A stretch of 52,572 bases of DNA from Planctomycetaceae bacterium (GTDB taxonomy: Bacteria > Planctomycetota > Planctomycetia > Planctomycetales > Planctomycetaceae). Positions 11,030-16,541 of the stretch are shown piece by piece. Every line of letters starts with the position of its first letter. Positions within the stretch are counted from its first letter, which is position 1. Where the stretch lies: contig WFTL01000171.1 of NCBI GenBank assembly GCA_015485495.1, positions 1 through 52,572 of the forward strand. The letters run 5' to 3'. The notes below the pieces were generated by a model, which worked only from the letters and a program-made list of their open reading frames with translations, made no database searches and was not told where the DNA came from. The position numbers and the translations under genes were made by a program.

Positions 11030-11240
11030 CCGGCCGCCCGGGAGGGGATGCCTGCAGTGCCTCGGCTTCAGACCGATTCGGGTTCGCGGCGCTGCCACGT
11101 TCTTCGGCCGCACTGAGCGCCCCTGCCCCGCCCTCCGGGTGTTTCCGGCAGCCTGTACCGGCACCCCGGTTCGGTGAGCACATGTTTCATCCCGCGCGCA
11201 GGAACGGCCTGCGCAGATCTTTTCCGTGGAGTCCTCAGCG

Positions 11241-11906
11241 ATGCAGAAGCTTGTCGATGGCATTCACCAGTTTCAGAAGGACGTCTTCAGCAGCAAGCGG
11301 ATTCTGTTCGAAAGACTGGTCGACGGTCAGCACCCGCTGGCTCTGTTCATCACCTGTTCGGATTCCCGCATCAATCCCGGTCTGCTCACTCAGACAGAAC
11401 CTGGTGAACTGTTCATCCTTCGCAACGCGGGCAACATCGTGCCGCCATACGGAGCGGCGGAAGGGGGCGAGGCAGCGACCATCGAATATGCCGTAAGTGT
11501 CCTGGAGGTTCGGGACATAGTGATCTGCGGGCATTCTCACTGCGGTGCCATGGGAGGCCTGCTGAACCCGGATCAGGTGGACAGTCTTCCCGCCGTGCGG
11601 GCGTGGCTGCAGCACGCCGAATCCACGCATCGGATCATCCAGGAAAACTATGGACACATCACCGAACCTGGTGCCCGGCTGACGGCTACGGTGGAAGAAA
11701 ATGTTCTGGTTCAGCTGGAACATCTGAGAACCCATCCGGCCGTCGCCGCAGCTCTTGGTCGCGGCGCCCTGACGCTGCACGGATGGGTTTACAAGTTCGA
11801 AACCGGGCAGGTGTTCAGCTTCGATCCGGACAGCGGCCAGTTTCTTCCGCTCGAAGGGGCATCCGGTGCCGTACCGAACACCGCACGGATCCTGCCGCCC
11901 ATCTGA
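11241..11906 (+). CDS. Beta-class carbonic anhydrase
   Basis: Interconverts CO2 and bicarbonate. It has 221 residues, normal for the bacterial beta class. Zinc ligands are Cys39 and Asp41/Arg43 in CSDSR, then His98 and Cys101 in [10 protein letters not shown]. The Asp41-Arg43 dyad is the catalytic switch pair of type I enzymes. [16 protein letters not shown] and [15 protein letters not shown] are also family hallmarks. No signal peptide is seen, so it is cytoplasmic. GGAG nine bases before ATG 11241 supports that start over an in-frame GTG at 11226. A SulP transporter starts 85 bases downstream on the same strand, a pairing seen with SulP bicarbonate transporters, which suggests a shared role in inorganic carbon or pH homeostasis. 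Confidence 0.95.
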
Positions 11907-11991
11907 CCGGCGGAAAGACACCCCATCGCAGTGACAGATTCCTGAACGGCCCTTTTCACAATTCTGCTGCCATCCCGGAAAGTCAGGTCCT

Positions 11992-14001
11992 GTGAACGAA
12001 CAGTCATCTGCAGAAACAGTGAACACGGCGAGCGGTCCGGCGAATATCGAACCGTCGCCGGTTCGCCAGGATGTCCTGGCATCGATCGTCGTCTTCCTTG
12101 TTGCCCTGCCGCTGTGCATGGGCATTGCGATTGCATCGGGAGTTCCCGTCGCTGCGGGGCTGATGACCGGCATCGTCGGCGGTCTGGTTGTCGGTTTTCT
12201 GGCCGGAGCTCCGCTGCAGGTCAGTGGTCCGGCCGCCGGTCTGACAGTGATCGTTTACGAACTGGTGCAGACGCACGGGCTGGAAGTTCTGGGACCGGCG
12301 GTTCTGCTGGGCGGAACCGTGCAGCTGATCGCCGGCCTTCTGCGATACGGGCGCGTGTTTCGGGCCGTCTCCCCGGCCGTGATCCATGGCATGCTGGCCG
12401 GCATCGGTGTCCTCATTTTCGCCAGCCAGTTTCATGTGATGGTGGACGATGCTCCCAAAGGCAGCGGCATTGCCAACCTGCTGTCGATTCCCGAAGCCGT
12501 CCGTAAAGGTCTGCCGGTGCCGGAACCGGGGACAGCCGACGAACGGCGTGCCCGCCGCTGGCTGCTGCAGCAGTTCGGTGCACTCCACGAACAGCAGGTC
12601 CAGCTTCGGGAACTGGCGGCCGAACGGATTCCGGCAACAGCTTCATCGCCGGATCATGGGCATGACGCGCATCATTCGCCGCCACCGGCTCTGCCGGATC
12701 CGCAGGAACTGAAGCCGCTGGCAGTTCGGCAGAAGCAGCTCACTGACCACCTTGCGGAACTCATGCCGCAACTGCAGGAGCTGCTGAACTCCGGAAGCAT
12801 CCGGGATGCGGAAGAGGTCCGGCGGGCAGCGGAACTGGCCCGGCGGCGGCTGGAAACCGCCCGGAATCATCTCGAACAGGGAAATGTCGAGCTGGTGCGG
12901 GAATCCCAGGCCGCCGCTCAGACAACTCTGGAACATGTCCTGAACCGTCTGAAAAACCACGACTGGGCCGCCAAGATCGGCCTGCTGACGATTCTCACCC
13001 TGGTTCTGTGGAACTTCGCCGTTCCTCGAAAGCTGCGTCTCGTTCCGGCCCCTCTGGCGGCCGTTCTGGCGGCCACGATTGTGGCGGCCGTCCTGAACCT
13101 TCCGGTTCTGTATGTGGAAGTTCCCGATCAGCTCTGGTCAGAAATCCATGTTCCATCCTGGTCTGTGCTGCAGTCGGTGCCTCCAATGGTCATCGTGCGT
13201 ACGGGAATCGTTCTGGCCGTCGTGGCCAGCGCCGAAACGCTGCTGTGCGCCACAGCCGTCGATCAGATGCAAAGCGGCAGCCGCACCGCCTACGATCGGG
13301 AACTGGCTGCTCAGGGCATCGGCAACATGATCTGCGGGTTTCTGGGGGCCCTGCCCATGACCGGCGTGATCGTTCGCAGTTCGGCCAATGTCGAAGCGGG
13401 GGCCCGCACGCGGCTGTCCACGATTCTGCACGGACTGTGGCTGCTGATTTTCGTGTCCTTTCTGTCGTTTCTGCTCAGAATGATCCCCACGGCCGCTCTG
13501 GCCGGAATGCTCGTGTACATCGGATACCGCCTGGTCAGCCTGCGGGCTGTGCAGGAACTGAGAAAGTATGGCCGCGGGGAGGTCGCTGTCTACACGGTGA
13601 CACTGGTTACCATCGTCTGCACGGACCTGCTGACCGGAGTCCTGACGGGAATCATTCTGTCCGCCGTCCGGCTGCTGCACCGATTCTCCCGGCTCCGGGT
13701 TGAACTGGACATCCATCCCGACCGTCAGCAGGCTCTGCTGAAGCTGACCGGCGCAGCCACGTTCATTCGCCTGCCCGCGCTGGCTGATGCCCTGGAACGG
13801 GTGCCGCCGGCCTGCGAACTCCATGTCGATTTCGATCGCCTGACATACATCGATCACGCGTGCCTGGACCTGCTGATGACATGGGCCCGACAGCACGAAA
13901 CCACGGGGGGAACGCTGGTCATCGACTGGGAATCCCTGCACGCTCATTTTCGAAGCCGCCCGGTCGACCCGGATCGCACCAGCCGGCCCGGAGCGGCCTG
14001 A
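11992..14001 (+). CDS. SulP family anion transporter with STAS domain and large inserted soluble segment
   Basis: A 669-residue inner-membrane transporter of the SLC26/SulP family (sulfate, bicarbonate or other anions). Residues 27-150 hold the first membrane helices with the SulP hallmark VSGPAAGLTVIV. Membrane helices resume at about 327 and continue to about 570. A C-terminal STAS domain (about 575-655) ends in a DRLTYIDHACLDLL helix. Between them, residues 172-325 are hydrophilic, with a His-rich patch DHGHDAHHS (221-229) and long Glu/Gln/Arg-rich helices of coiled-coil character. Typical SulP proteins have only a short loop here. The start is GTG 11992 (MNEQSSAE). The carbonic anhydrase immediately upstream argues for bicarbonate as substrate, as in cyanobacterial BicA, but this is inference. 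Family assignment is certain; substrate is not. Confidence 0.92.
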   Translation: MNEQSSAETVNTASGPANIEPSPVRQDVLASIVVFLVALPLCMGIAIASGVPVAAGLMTGIVGGLVVGFLAGAPLQVSGPAAGLTVIVYELVQTHGLEVLGPAVLLGGTVQLIAGLLRYGRVFRAVSPAVIHGMLAGIGVLIFASQFHVMVDDAPKGSGIANLLSIPEAVRKGLPVPEPGTADERRARRWLLQQFGALHEQQVQLRELAAERIPATASSPDHGHDAHHSPPPALPDPQELKPLAVRQKQLTDHLAELMPQLQELLNSGSIRDAEEVRRAAELARRRLETARNHLEQGNVELVRESQAAAQTTLEHVLNRLKNHDWAAKIGLLTILTLVLWNFAVPRKLRLVPAPLAAVLAATIVAAVLNLPVLYVEVPDQLWSEIHVPSWSVLQSVPPMVIVRTGIVLAVVASAETLLCATAVDQMQSGSRTAYDRELAAQGIGNMICGFLGALPMTGVIVRSSANVEAGARTRLSTILHGLWLLIFVSFLSFLLRMIPTAALAGMLVYIGYRLVSLRAVQELRKYGRGEVAVYTVTLVTIVCTDLLTGVLTGIILSAVRLLHRFSRLRVELDIHPDRQQALLKLTGAATFIRLPALADALERVPPACELHVDFDRLTYIDHACLDLLMTWARQHETTGGTLVIDWESLHAHFRSRPVDPDRTSRPGAA

Positions 14002-14152: not shown

Positions 14153-15493
14153 CTATCTGTCGGCCGCAGAACGGACGCTTTCGCCGGCTGGAATCTTTCT
14201 GATGACCTGGCCGCTGAAACCGGCGCTGTGAACGGCGGCAAGAATGTCCTTTTCCGGAACCGGACAGCAGAATTCCGTGCCGACCACCACCTGGTGCTTC
14301 GCGTAGTCGACGTCGACGGCCAGCACGCCGGGCACGTCACGGACAGCAGCGGCAAGGCCGGCGGCGCAGCCTTCGCACGTCATGCCATCGACGGCGATGA
14401 CGGCCCGGTTCATGTCCTGCGTCACGGCTGTGCCGTCTCCACCGAGAAATGCGCCGACATAATCCGGAAAGAACAGAAACGCGATCGCCAGGATGGCTGC
14501 CATCCAGAGCATGGCCCGGTTCAGCGTCATCATGCGGAAACGCCCTCCGCCTGTCGGTGCGCAGCAGTCGGCGGATGAAGCCGGCTCGCCGGAGCAGCAG
14601 TCATGCAGGGTGGGCTCGCCGGAGCCGTCATTCTCCGCGTCAGCGGTCTGAACGGAACAGCAGTTGTCAGGGCCGGCGGTGACTGTTTTCTTTGGCCGGT
14701 ACGCGAACCAGAAGGCCGTGCCCAGAAACCCGAACGTCAGTACCATGAAACCGGGTCGGTACGCTTCCAGCGTCGATGCGATCCCGGCGCCGGAAACACC
14801 GGCAGCGAGAAGCAACAGAGGCAGCCAGCAGCAGCTCGACGCCATGACGGCAGAGATCAGTGTTCCTGCTGTGGCGATCTTTTCGCCGCGACCTGTCATC
14901 GACGCGCGCGATCCGGCACCGGATGCATCCGGAAGCGGAGACATGTCCTCATCGGCCATGCCCAGTTCCTGCTGAGCGATCTTCAGTCCGTGCGCGACGC
15001 TGCCCAGACAGCACGAACCGGACGGATTCTCAGTTTCACACCGGCAGCCGGAGTTTTTCATCTTCGCCCGGATGTCGTCCAGAGCCGTGCAGGTGCCCGT
15101 CCTCCGCAGTTCCCGCTTCATGCTCTCAACCGAATGCCCGAAACAGTAACACAAAGGGCGTTCGCCGCTGGTTTCCTTGATGCCGACTTCCACTTTGAGC
15201 TGTGATTTCGTGAACTGCCGGTCGTCGCATTCGGAAAAGTAGACAACGTCACAGCCGGGAGACTCACAGAACCGCCAGCCCGTCTCAGACGCCGCAGGCC
15301 GGCAGCCGCCCGCTTCCGATCCGCTCGATGTGTGGCACCCTTCCGAGCCGGTTCCACGAACCTGTTCGGCGAATTCGTCCTTCAGCAGGGAACGGAGCGT
15401 CACGGAACGGACAGGTTTTCCTCTGGCGCCGCATGCAGGACAGCAGATTCGCACAGACATGCCTGGCAGGACATCATCAGCCGTTTCGTTCAT
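14153..15493 (-). CDS. CopZN-MerT-HMA fusion, mercuric ion transport protein
   Basis: A 446-residue fusion. Residues 16-165 match the N-terminal cysteine-rich domain of Archaeoglobus-type CopZ (zinc plus 2Fe-2S): CCPACGARGKPV, CESPGCDVVYF, CYCFGH and NPSGSCCLG motifs. Residues about 204-265 are a MerT-like pair of membrane helices with the vicinal Cys221-Cys222 that passes Hg(II) through the membrane. A loop with three more Cys-Cys pairs (278-279, 299-300, 310-311) follows. A third membrane helix spans about 327-347. Residues 363-435 form an HMA/MerP-like domain with MTCEGC (Cys373, Cys376). The start ATG 15493 follows a purine-rich GAAGGCGG; upstream frame extension is discarded because homology begins here. 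It is transcribed divergently from a MerR gene with a MerR-type promoter between. Mercury is the likeliest ion, but lead, cadmium or copper cannot be excluded. Confidence 0.88.
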   Translation of the reverse strand: MNETADDVLPGMSVRICCPACGARGKPVRSVTLRSLLKDEFAEQVRGTGSEGCHTSSGSEAGGCRPAASETGWRFCESPGCDVVYFSECDDRQFTKSQLKVEVGIKETSGERPLCYCFGHSVESMKRELRRTGTCTALDDIRAKMKNSGCRCETENPSGSCCLGSVAHGLKIAQQELGMADEDMSPLPDASGAGSRASMTGRGEKIATAGTLISAVMASSCCWLPLLLLAAGVSGAGIASTLEAYRPGFMVLTFGFLGTAFWFAYRPKKTVTAGPDNCCSVQTADAENDGSGEPTLHDCCSGEPASSADCCAPTGGGRFRMMTLNRAMLWMAAILAIAFLFFPDYVGAFLGGDGTAVTQDMNRAVIAVDGMTCEGCAAGLAAAVRDVPGVLAVDVDYAKHQVVVGTEFCCPVPEKDILAAVHSAGFSGQVIRKIPAGESVRSAADR

Positions 15494-15548: not shown

Positions 15549-15580
15549 ATTATGAACCCTGTACCTGAGTGAAACGTCAA
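15549..15580 (-). promoter_or_regulatory. MerR-type promoter/operator for the MerT fusion gene
   Basis: Read on the minus strand, TTGACG (15580-15575) and CATAAT (15554-15549) are good -35 and -10 hexamers separated by 20 bases (19 if the -10 is read as TCATAA). This overlong spacer is the hallmark of MerR-family promoters. The imperfect dyad CACTCAGGTACAGGGT lies within the spacer, where MerR dimers bind and untwist DNA. It sits between the divergent merR-like and merT-like genes, so one operator could serve both. Confidence 0.7.
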
Positions 15581-15647: not shown

Positions 15648-16061
15648 ATGGCAGCGCCGAAGTACTGCACGATCGGCCGGCTGGCGAAGCGGGCCGGCAT
15701 TCCTTCATCGACGATCCGTTACTACGAGCGGATTGGTCTGATCGAACCGGAATCCCGCAGCACGGGCAACTACCGTCTGTACAGCCAGACTTCCCTGGAG
15801 AAGCTGCGTTTCATTCGGGCCGCACAGGCGGTCGGCTTCACGCTCGACGACACGCGTGCTCTGCTGGCCGATGAAACAGGCGAACCGCCGCCGTGCGGAA
15901 GCGTGCAGAAGCGAATCGAAGCCCGGCTGTCGGATATCGAGCAGCGGCTGAAACAACTGCGTCATGTCCGCAGGGTGCTCAAAGCGGCCCTGGAACAGTG
16001 TTCCGCTCAGTTGCCATCGGAGCGCTGCTGCATCGTGGAAAAGCTGCGGGCGGCCTGCTGA
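15648..16061 (+). CDS. merR: MerR family regulator, mercury-type
   Basis: A 137-residue transcriptional regulator. The winged helix-turn-helix is at the N-terminus (YCTIGRLAKRAGIPSSTIRYYERIGLIEP, residues 6-34, then NYRLYSQ). A long dimerisation helix spans about 84-118. Cys83, Cys118 and Cys127 have exactly the spacing (35 and 9 residues) of the Hg(II)-binding triad Cys82/117/126 of Tn501 MerR. An extra Cys128 and a terminal Cys137 are present. ATG 15648 is chosen because homology starts there and AGGGA lies upstream; an in-frame upstream start at 15618 exists. It is divergent from the MerT fusion and presumably represses and activates it through the promoter between them. arsC follows 48 bases downstream. 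Confidence 0.9.
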   Translation: MAAPKYCTIGRLAKRAGIPSSTIRYYERIGLIEPESRSTGNYRLYSQTSLEKLRFIRAAQAVGFTLDDTRALLADETGEPPPCGSVQKRIEARLSDIEQRLKQLRHVRRVLKAALEQCSAQLPSERCCIVEKLRAAC

Positions 16062-16109: not shown

Positions 16110-16541
16110 ATGAGGCTGGAATTGAAACGCGTCCTGATTCTCTGTACGGGGAATTCGTGCCGTTCCCAGATGGCAGAAGCACTGTGGAAATCGCTCGGCG
16201 GTGATCAGTGGCACGCGGAATCCGCCGGTTCGCATCCGTCCGGATTCGTTCATCCGCTGGCCATCCGCGCCATGCAGGAAATCGACATCGACATCAGCAC
16301 CCGTCGGAGCAAATCCGTCGACGAATTCCAGGACCGGACGTTCGATCTGGTCATCACTGTGTGCGACAACGCAAAGGACTTCTGCCCGTCCTTTTCCGGA
16401 GCACGACAGATTCTGCACTGGCCGTTTGAAGACCCCGCTGACGCAGCGGGATCCGAAGAAGAACGCATGCAGATTTTCCGACGCGTCCGAGACGAGATCC
16501 GGGAGCAGATCGTCCGGTATCTCGGGGGCAGTCCGAGCTGA
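16110..16541 (+). CDS. arsC: Arsenate reductase, thioredoxin-coupled (low-molecular-weight phosphatase fold)
   Basis: Reduces arsenate to arsenite in the cytoplasm using a cysteine relay regenerated by thioredoxin. 143 residues. The P-loop C-T-G-N-S-C-R-S (Cys12 to Arg18, CX5R) and the resolving pair Cys85/Cys92 in CDNAKDFC match Cys10, Cys82 and Cys89 of the staphylococcal enzyme. WPFEDPADA is the usual catalytic-Asp loop. ATG 16110 gives MRLELKRVL; a TTG at 16122 preceded by GAGG would give MKRVL, closer to the family N-terminus. It follows merR by 48 bases on the same strand. No arsenite efflux gene (arsB/acr3) or arsR is visible in the window. Confidence 0.93.
   Translation: MRLELKRVLILCTGNSCRSQMAEALWKSLGGDQWHAESAGSHPSGFVHPLAIRAMQEIDIDISTRRSKSVDEFQDRTFDLVITVCDNAKDFCPSFSGARQILHWPFEDPADAAGSEEERMQIFRRVRDEIREQIVRYLGGSPS

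Follow-up and report, generated by a model that had tools for sequence, protein, structure and literature searches.

The stretch of planctomycete DNA analyzed here (the window, 52,572 nucleotides of contig WFTL01000171.1) carries at 14153-15493, on the minus strand, a reading frame of 446 residues without internal stop that joins a CopZ-type N-terminal domain (CopZN), a MerT membrane part and an HMA domain in one chain. An earlier note, made from the sequence letters, had described this frame with its CopZN-type domain of at least ten cysteines, a vicinal Cys221-Cys222, three further Cys-Cys pairs in a loop and a C-terminal HMA domain with MTCEGC. All of these features hold, and the pairs lie where the note had placed them.

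The fusion gene and its domains

The domain search proposed in the earlier note placed each of the three domains above its curated cut-off in Pfam: zf_CopZ (PF18423) with 54.7 bits (cut-off 28.4), MerT (PF02411, residues 207-281) with 46.8 bits (cut-off 32.9), and HMA with 44.0 bits (cut-off 24.8). The NCBIfam model NF047645 (CopZ_Nterm_CC) gave 97.4 bits against a cut-off of 100 in the NCBIfam protein scan, and 106.7 for the fusion frame in the genome search, over the cut-off with neighboring stretches counted. The NCBIfam scan turned up no full-length model for the fusion chain. A longer open reading frame of 515 residues, reaching up to 15700, is present in the same frame. It was rejected as the true protein, and the start at 15493 is favored, because the proposed promoter (see below) sits within the extension.

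CopZN covers residues 18-166 (14996-15442, minus strand). The MerT part follows at residues 202-350 (14444-14890, minus strand), with Cys221-Cys222 in transmembrane helix 1 (14828-14833, minus strand) and a putatively cytosolic loop (14561-14662, minus strand) that holds the Cys pairs 278-279, 299-300 and 310-311. The chain ends in a MerP-like HMA domain (14216-14401, minus strand) with the motif GMTCEGC (C373 and C376). The earlier note had divided the membrane part into a MerT-like helix pair, a loop and another helix. These elements are present, but they are better described as a unit: in the predicted model, helices 202-230, 246-265 and 318-341 form one complete three-helix MerT, and three membrane helices have been described for MerT (PMC3466566). 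The fusion is therefore a MerTP-type transporter, in which a MerT and then a MerP-like HMA domain occur within one chain, preceded by a CopZ-type [2Fe-2S]/zinc domain.

Structure, conserved cysteines and topology

The predicted model of the fusion has a mean pLDDT of 76 and a pTM of 0.50. Confidence is good for the two soluble domains, fair for the membrane part and lacking for the loop 270-317, and the relative placement of the domains should not be relied on. At E 3e-10, phmmer matches CopZN to A. fulgidus CopZ-N, whose crystal structure is 2hu9, and Foldseek matches the model to the same structure with a TM of 0.78-0.82 of target. The C-terminal domain of the model matches HMA structures, including MerP 1osd.

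Conservation was studied in an alignment of 49 rows, made up of the window protein and 48 relatives chosen as full-length from 79 loci (see below). The zf_CopZ, MerT and HMA domains occur in all 49, with Fer2_BFD additionally in two; because the rows were picked as full-length, these counts speak for conservation among members and not for the frequency of the fusion. The window protein has 27 cysteines, 15 of them within residues 1-178, and its Cys-Cys pairs begin at 17, 161, 221, 278, 299, 310 and 409. Thirteen cysteines are invariant in all 49 members, namely 18, 76, 81, 115, 117, 152, 161 and 162 in CopZN, 221 and 222 in helix 1, 310 in the loop, and 373 and 376 in the HMA domain, while C21 of CopZN is cysteine in 44 of 49. 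In the columns of the alignment, the loop pair at 278-279 occurs in one of 49 (the window protein only) and 299-300 in 25, both counts being rough because the loop aligns poorly. From the alignment with 2hu9, we take zinc to be bound by Cys18/21/76/81 and the [2Fe-2S] cluster by Cys115/117/152/161-162. The predicted cluster and zinc cysteines of the CopZ N-terminal domain are all present in the fusion.

The mean net charges flanking the helices in the 49 aligned members are +1.6, +0.1, +3.4 and -0.9. This topology signal suggests that the N terminus with CopZN and the cysteine loop are cytosolic and that the HMA domain lies outside.

The divergent regulator and the proposed promoter of the fusion

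A gene for a MerR-family regulator (15648-16061, plus strand; Pfam and NCBIfam) lies divergent from the fusion at a distance of 154 bp. Among solved structures, its product comes closest to Bacillus MerR (4ua1), with 5gpe and CadR entries next. Among the 79 loci, which stem from the best 80 of 429 confirmed stretches, 59 have a MerR-family gene no more than 4 kb from the fusion, and several of the other 20 have little flank.

The Hg(II) triad of Tn501 MerR consists of Cys82/117/126 (PMC5027573). The window regulator has C83, C118 and C127, with spacings of 35 and 9 equal to those of that triad, and the three columns are cysteine in 94, 94 and 99% of 69 MerR rows, a set that includes 10 rows in other positions and one far, broken row (L072). 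At least one triad cysteine is missing in L076 (second copy), L105, L128, L140 and L144 (second copy), and one MerR copy in each of L111, L114, L119, L122, L130 and L137 has a shorter, CadR-like C-x6-C loop.

How closely does such a regulator point to mercury? The same three-cysteine set is reported to serve regulators of Cd and other divalent metals as well, and Cys versus Ser at one position is said to decide between +2 and +1 ions (PMC9909328); the window regulator has Cys, not Ser, at that position. Its score with TIGR02051 (MerR) is 101.5 bits, under the cut-off of 150.85, and it falls below the cut-offs of the ZntR, CueR and CadR models of NCBIfam. Because none of these four models reaches its cut-off, the metal of the regulator is not readable from model scores.

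The proposed promoter of the fusion (15549-15580, minus strand) combines a -35 element TTGACG and a -10 element CATAAT with a 20-bp spacer. This spacer is conserved among the upstream regions, being exactly 20 bp in 40 of 42 scored -35/-10 sites, where shuffled sequences that keep single-base composition only give about two per length. The survey took in 57 upstream regions, two of which (L084 and L085) are copies; 15 of the 57, some of them short, yielded no scored promoter. Spacers of 19-20 bp are described as typical of MerR-controlled promoters (PMC9909328). An operator dyad matches at 8 or 9 of 9 positions in three relatives, and the window's own is weak, with 6 of 9.

Neighboring genes and candidate exporters

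A gene for an ArsC-like (thioredoxin-type) protein (16110-16541, plus strand) begins 48 bp behind merR. The protein matches Pfam LMWPc and reaches 142 bits with TIGR02691, under the cut-off of 174, and it is probably a neighbor rather than part of the relay discussed below. At 11226-14001, the window encodes a carbonic anhydrase and then a SulP transporter with STAS, the core of which seems, by eye, to be broken by a hydrophilic segment around residues 175-310.

Elsewhere in the window's genome lies a gene for an SO_0444-like Cu/Zn efflux permease (G000:C132, L066 5099-6328, minus strand) with a C-terminal HMA domain carrying GMKCEGC. The permease scores 287 bits against a cut-off of 300 and is the only other HMA match in this genome at E 0.001. 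Three E1-E2 ATPases are also present, two with CPC and one with SPC. The SO_0444-like transporter and these ATPases could serve as exporters for imported metal.

Small proteins recur near the fusion in other loci. A short cysteine-rich protein with a signal-like N terminus is encoded between merR and the fusion in L103, L119, L126, L133 and L143 and also near the fusion in L122, L137 and L145, so that the cluster spans 8 loci; a scan of one member, from L143, gave no Pfam match. A gene for the small membrane protein YnfA (UPF0060; one member scanned in Pfam) lies near the fusion in 9 of the 79 loci from the best 80 of 429 (L072, L074, L076, L083, L099, L116, L118, L120 and L125).

Occurrence across genomes

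The planctomycete survey suggested in the earlier note was carried out as a census of 294 Planctomycetota genomes, the window's own included. Relatives of the window protein occur in 33 of them at E 1e-10, MerT (PF02411, E 1e-5) likewise in 33, and CopZN (NF047645, E 1e-8) in 33, with 24 of these over the cut-off. Comparison of match positions by hand divided the 33 MerT genomes into 22 with CopZN in the same chain, one (G006) in which the two are split but adjacent, and 10 without adjoining CopZN. The fusion of G017 was missed by PF02411 at E 1e-5.

A scan of genome_contigs confirmed 429 of 514 candidate stretches, and the best 80 of these 429 make up the 79 loci used throughout. Most of the 79 are titled Planctomycetota, with five Verrucomicrobiota and one Nitrospirae; the titles Bacteroidales, Porticoccaceae and Quisquiliibacterium are probably binning errors. 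Judged by simple motifs, the fusion is complete in one frame in 70 of the 79, and some of the remaining nine are cut by contig ends or vary in motif. Single-frame fusions are also found on a complete plasmid and on single-contig chromosomes. The fusion is a genuine variant of the MerTP transporter, widely distributed and without a name of its own.

Two other arrangements were observed. In G006 (L063 1606-2712, minus strand), the split form consists of merR, then a gene for MerT-HMA, then a separate CopZN gene, and the HMA motif reads GMT-TGA-PVG-TGA, which suggests a putative selenoprotein with two Sec in the metal site. In G198 (L062 7200-8201), the place of CopZN in front of MerT-HMA is taken by a different N-terminal segment, thioredoxin-like by eye, which would be a further kind of N-terminal addition to MerTP.

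Linkage to MerA and MerB

Six of the 79 loci drawn from the best 80 of 429 have, next to the fusion, a MerA-type reductase whose last residues are SCC, namely L072 (where its frame is broken), L076, L096, L109, L110 and L120. A TIGR02053 scan of the last five gave 498-514 bits for four of them, against a cut-off of 454, and 414 for L096. Within the census, MerA over the cut-off occurs in 4 of 294 genomes, in all four less than 1 kb from a MerT-type gene. Two of these (G220 and G238) have MerA beside a MerT with CopZN and two (G084 and G206) beside a MerT without it, the G084 MerT match itself being under the Pfam cut-off. Were four genomes drawn at random, all of them would belong to the 33 with MerT with a probability of 1.3e-4.

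Among the 22 fused census genomes, 20, the window's own among them, have no MerA over the cut-off, and 12 of the 20 are at least 90% complete; a MerA may have been missed in some, because only the five best candidates per genome were scored. In the window's genome, all 35 candidates were scored and none is over the cut-off. A hidden MerA was not adopted there, considering that the three longest matches score no more than 384 bits (cut-off 454) and that the best MerA relative is without the C-terminal Cys pair. No MerB was found in this genome at E 1e-10.

Does CopZN simply take the place of MerA? Such mutual exclusion is not seen in the census, with MerA over the cut-off in 2 of 22 fused genomes and 2 of 10 unfused MerT genomes, and one further genome split. 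Nor does MerA mark one clade of fusions: on a tree of 75 rows its distribution requires 5 changes, a number not exceeded in 56 of 500 shuffles, the bootstrap of this tree being not settled and 'no MerA' meaning that the fetched flank showed none. Fusions that have MerA in that flank are interspersed with fusions that do not, with L079 beside L109 and L110, and L070 beside L072 and L076; in G257, a genome that carries the L070 fusion, there is no MerA match at 1e-110. Because of this interleaving, the absence of MerA does not seem to go along with a change in the fusion.

MerB is found at E 1e-10 in 6 of the 294 census genomes. In G020 (L132/L046, 2462-5699), merR, the fusion, a thioredoxin-like gene and merB follow one another in one direction; the MerB exceeds the cut-off of one NCBIfam model (195.5 bits, cut-off 193) and falls short of that of a second (183.5 bits, cut-off 200), and as a query over the fetched loci it was found beside no other fusion. 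With no MerA over the cut-off, G020 is a case of MerB without MerA, and how cytosolic Hg(II) is handled without MerA is a question raised for MerB-only genomes (PMC8261052). A free-standing CopZN-type gene occurs about 3 kb from a MerB-like gene in L181 (G016 contig 158; 4941-5468 and 8347-8889), with protein-kinase-like genes between the two.

A proposed relay and its alternatives

The best reading of the observed domains, cysteine conservation, topology signal, type of regulator and promoter, and linkage to MerA and MerB in some genomes, one to which we give slightly more belief than disbelief, is that the locus is a variant merTP encoding a relay, inducible by Hg(II), that leads from the HMA domain outside through the membrane cysteines to the cytosolic CopZN. 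Hg(II) would activate the divergent MerR, which would then turn on the promoter with the 20-bp spacer. In the inner membrane, the fusion would hand Hg(II) along cysteines within one chain: the periplasmic HMA domain (C373/C376) would capture the ion, C221-C222 of helix 1 and the cytosolic loop cysteines would carry it across the membrane, and CopZN would receive it. Where MerA is present, Hg(II) would pass onward from CopZN to MerA; in the majority, without detected MerA, it may stay with CopZN itself or go to low-molecular thiols or an exporter.

The earlier note had proposed a relay along the cysteines of a single polypeptide for a thiophilic metal in general, with the iron-sulfur domain receiving or sensing it. 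The relay fits the invariant cysteines in every segment and the N-in/C-out charges, and the MerR triad and the linkage to MerA and MerB speak more for mercury than for an unspecified thiophilic metal. Hg(II) as the metal, the inward direction, the order of hand-over and the role of CopZN as acceptor are what we infer from these data, and the iron-sulfur domain may receive the metal or sense it. What, then, happens in cells without MerA? A cell that has MerT but no MerA would be expected to suffer from it (Nakahara 1979, as cited in PMC4570782). One of three things should then hold: CopZN takes up the ion safely, the cell exports or sequesters it, or mercury is not in every case the metal handled.

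Where MerA is absent, the same relay might serve another soft divalent metal (Cd, Pb or Zn), with Hg as a side branch, and this has perhaps a minor share of the probability. The regulator scores alike on the ZntR, MerR, CueR and CadR/PbrR models, none of them over cut-off, regulator loops of CadR length occur in six loci, and the K2D plasmid island carries czc and cadA; among the 79 loci from the best 80 of 429, CzcA-type genes lie no more than 4 kb away in 9 and HMA-bearing P-type ATPases in 7. However, MerA and non-MerA fusions interleave (5 changes) and have near-identical regulators (L109 versus L079), the window regulator has MerR spacing, and the specificity of MerR and MerT is classically for Hg. 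With 27 cysteines in the chain, most fusion genomes without a MerA over cut-off, and candidate exporters in the window's genome (the SO_0444-like permease with its own HMA domain and the three E1-E2 ATPases), the membrane thiols might instead trap Hg(II) or pass it to an exporter with little net import, which would amount to sequestration, not reduction. We regard this as unlikely, considering that the helix 1 cysteines and one loop cysteine are strictly kept and that MerA lies beside the fusion in some genomes.

CopZN could also act on the metal. The A. fulgidus CopZ, which contains a CopZN domain, is reported to reduce Cu(II) (PMC7558416), and by this analogy a redox-active CopZN in the fusion might take Hg(II) from the transport path and reduce or hold it, making the fusion a MerA-independent mercury detoxifier. 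This seems quite improbable; if true, import and detoxification would be combined in one polypeptide, and CopZN would be a candidate acceptor for MerB-released Hg(II) in the G020 operon. The same precedent could be read as pointing to a copper system, in which CopZN would reduce Cu(II) while the chain would deliver Cu(I) or act as its chaperone, and the HMA domain of the fusion also matches copper chaperones and copper ATPases. That reading becomes very improbable in view of the linkage to MerA and MerB, the rarity of HMA-bearing P-type ATPases no more than 4 kb away (only 7 of the 79 loci from the best 80 of 429), and the regulator's Cys, not Ser, at the position reported to separate +1 from +2 ions (PMC9909328). 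As for a sequencing or frame error that joins separate genes, which the earlier note had named as grounds for withdrawing its claim, a split adjacent version does exist in G006 (merR, MerT-HMA, CopZN), but the single frame recurs in many independent assemblies, including the complete plasmid and single-contig chromosomes. Chance or artefact is therefore excluded with near certainty.

The interest of the fusion lies mainly in its usual occurrence without detected MerA, and it offers a way to test how a cell deals with cytosolic Hg(II) if it has no MerA.

Comparison with known systems

The fusion shares with the MerTP fusion (NF033556), and with MerT plus MerP, a three-helix MerT with a vicinal Cys pair in its first helix, cysteines in the loop and an HMA domain at the C terminus, and likewise an adjoining MerR-type gene in most loci and MerA or MerB in some. 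It differs by the added N-terminal CopZN of about 170 residues, by the loop Cys-Cys pairs of its clade (versus C-x5-C in distant members), and by occurring mostly without detected MerA. The window fusion (81.6 bits) and the K2D member (97.9 bits) both lie below the NF033556 equivalog cut-off of 180. A mer operon would have merA in the locus, and the window's genome has none over the cut-off.

The N-terminal domain of A. fulgidus CopZ (2hu9; NF047645) has the same fold as the fusion CopZN, with aligned cysteines. In A. fulgidus CopZ, however, its partner in the chain is a soluble HMA chaperone (PMC7558416), whereas the fusion has a membrane transporter between the two. The model NF045683 (MerT/CopZ fusion-like heavy metal transport selenoprotein) combines, by its name, MerT and a CopZ-type domain, and the window MerT part matches its start; unlike the fusion, its 235 positions are too short to include CopZN too, and the match is partial, with 45 bits against 375. 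Selenoprotein lists have one entry for a putative mercuric transport protein and others for CopZ-family (2Fe-2S) proteins.

The earlier note had seen no description of this domain order. Among the top-ranked results from the open-access PMC literature, we likewise found no earlier description of the CopZN-MerT-HMA order and no earlier report of an iron-sulfur metallochaperone domain within a Mer transporter; the order is nevertheless common, and one member has apparently been printed as MerA. The parts of the fusion are known, and the whole is not named in NCBIfam.

The member in question, K2D_46930 (QDV81057.1; CP036351.1 37939-39174, or L178 12016-13251), is 52% identical over 97% of the window protein and has CopZN, MerT and HMA stretches in NCBIfam, as the window fusion does. 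By sequence it is a CopZN-MerT-HMA fusion, whereas the record annotates it as merA and names it mercuric reductase; the reductase model matches no more than an HMA stretch of 72 residues, with 34 bits against 600. The divergent MerR-type ORF (L178 11487-11963) is not among the features listed (24 of 66) in CP036351.1. A plasmid-encoded putative MerA is listed for strain K2D in PMC11588811 and is very probably the K2D_46930 fusion. The CopZN-fused form is the commonest MerT in our sample of the phylum (22 of 33 MerT genomes) and mostly occurs without detected MerA; surveys that count merA could therefore miss mercury genes, or may miscount them, as has apparently happened for the K2D plasmid.
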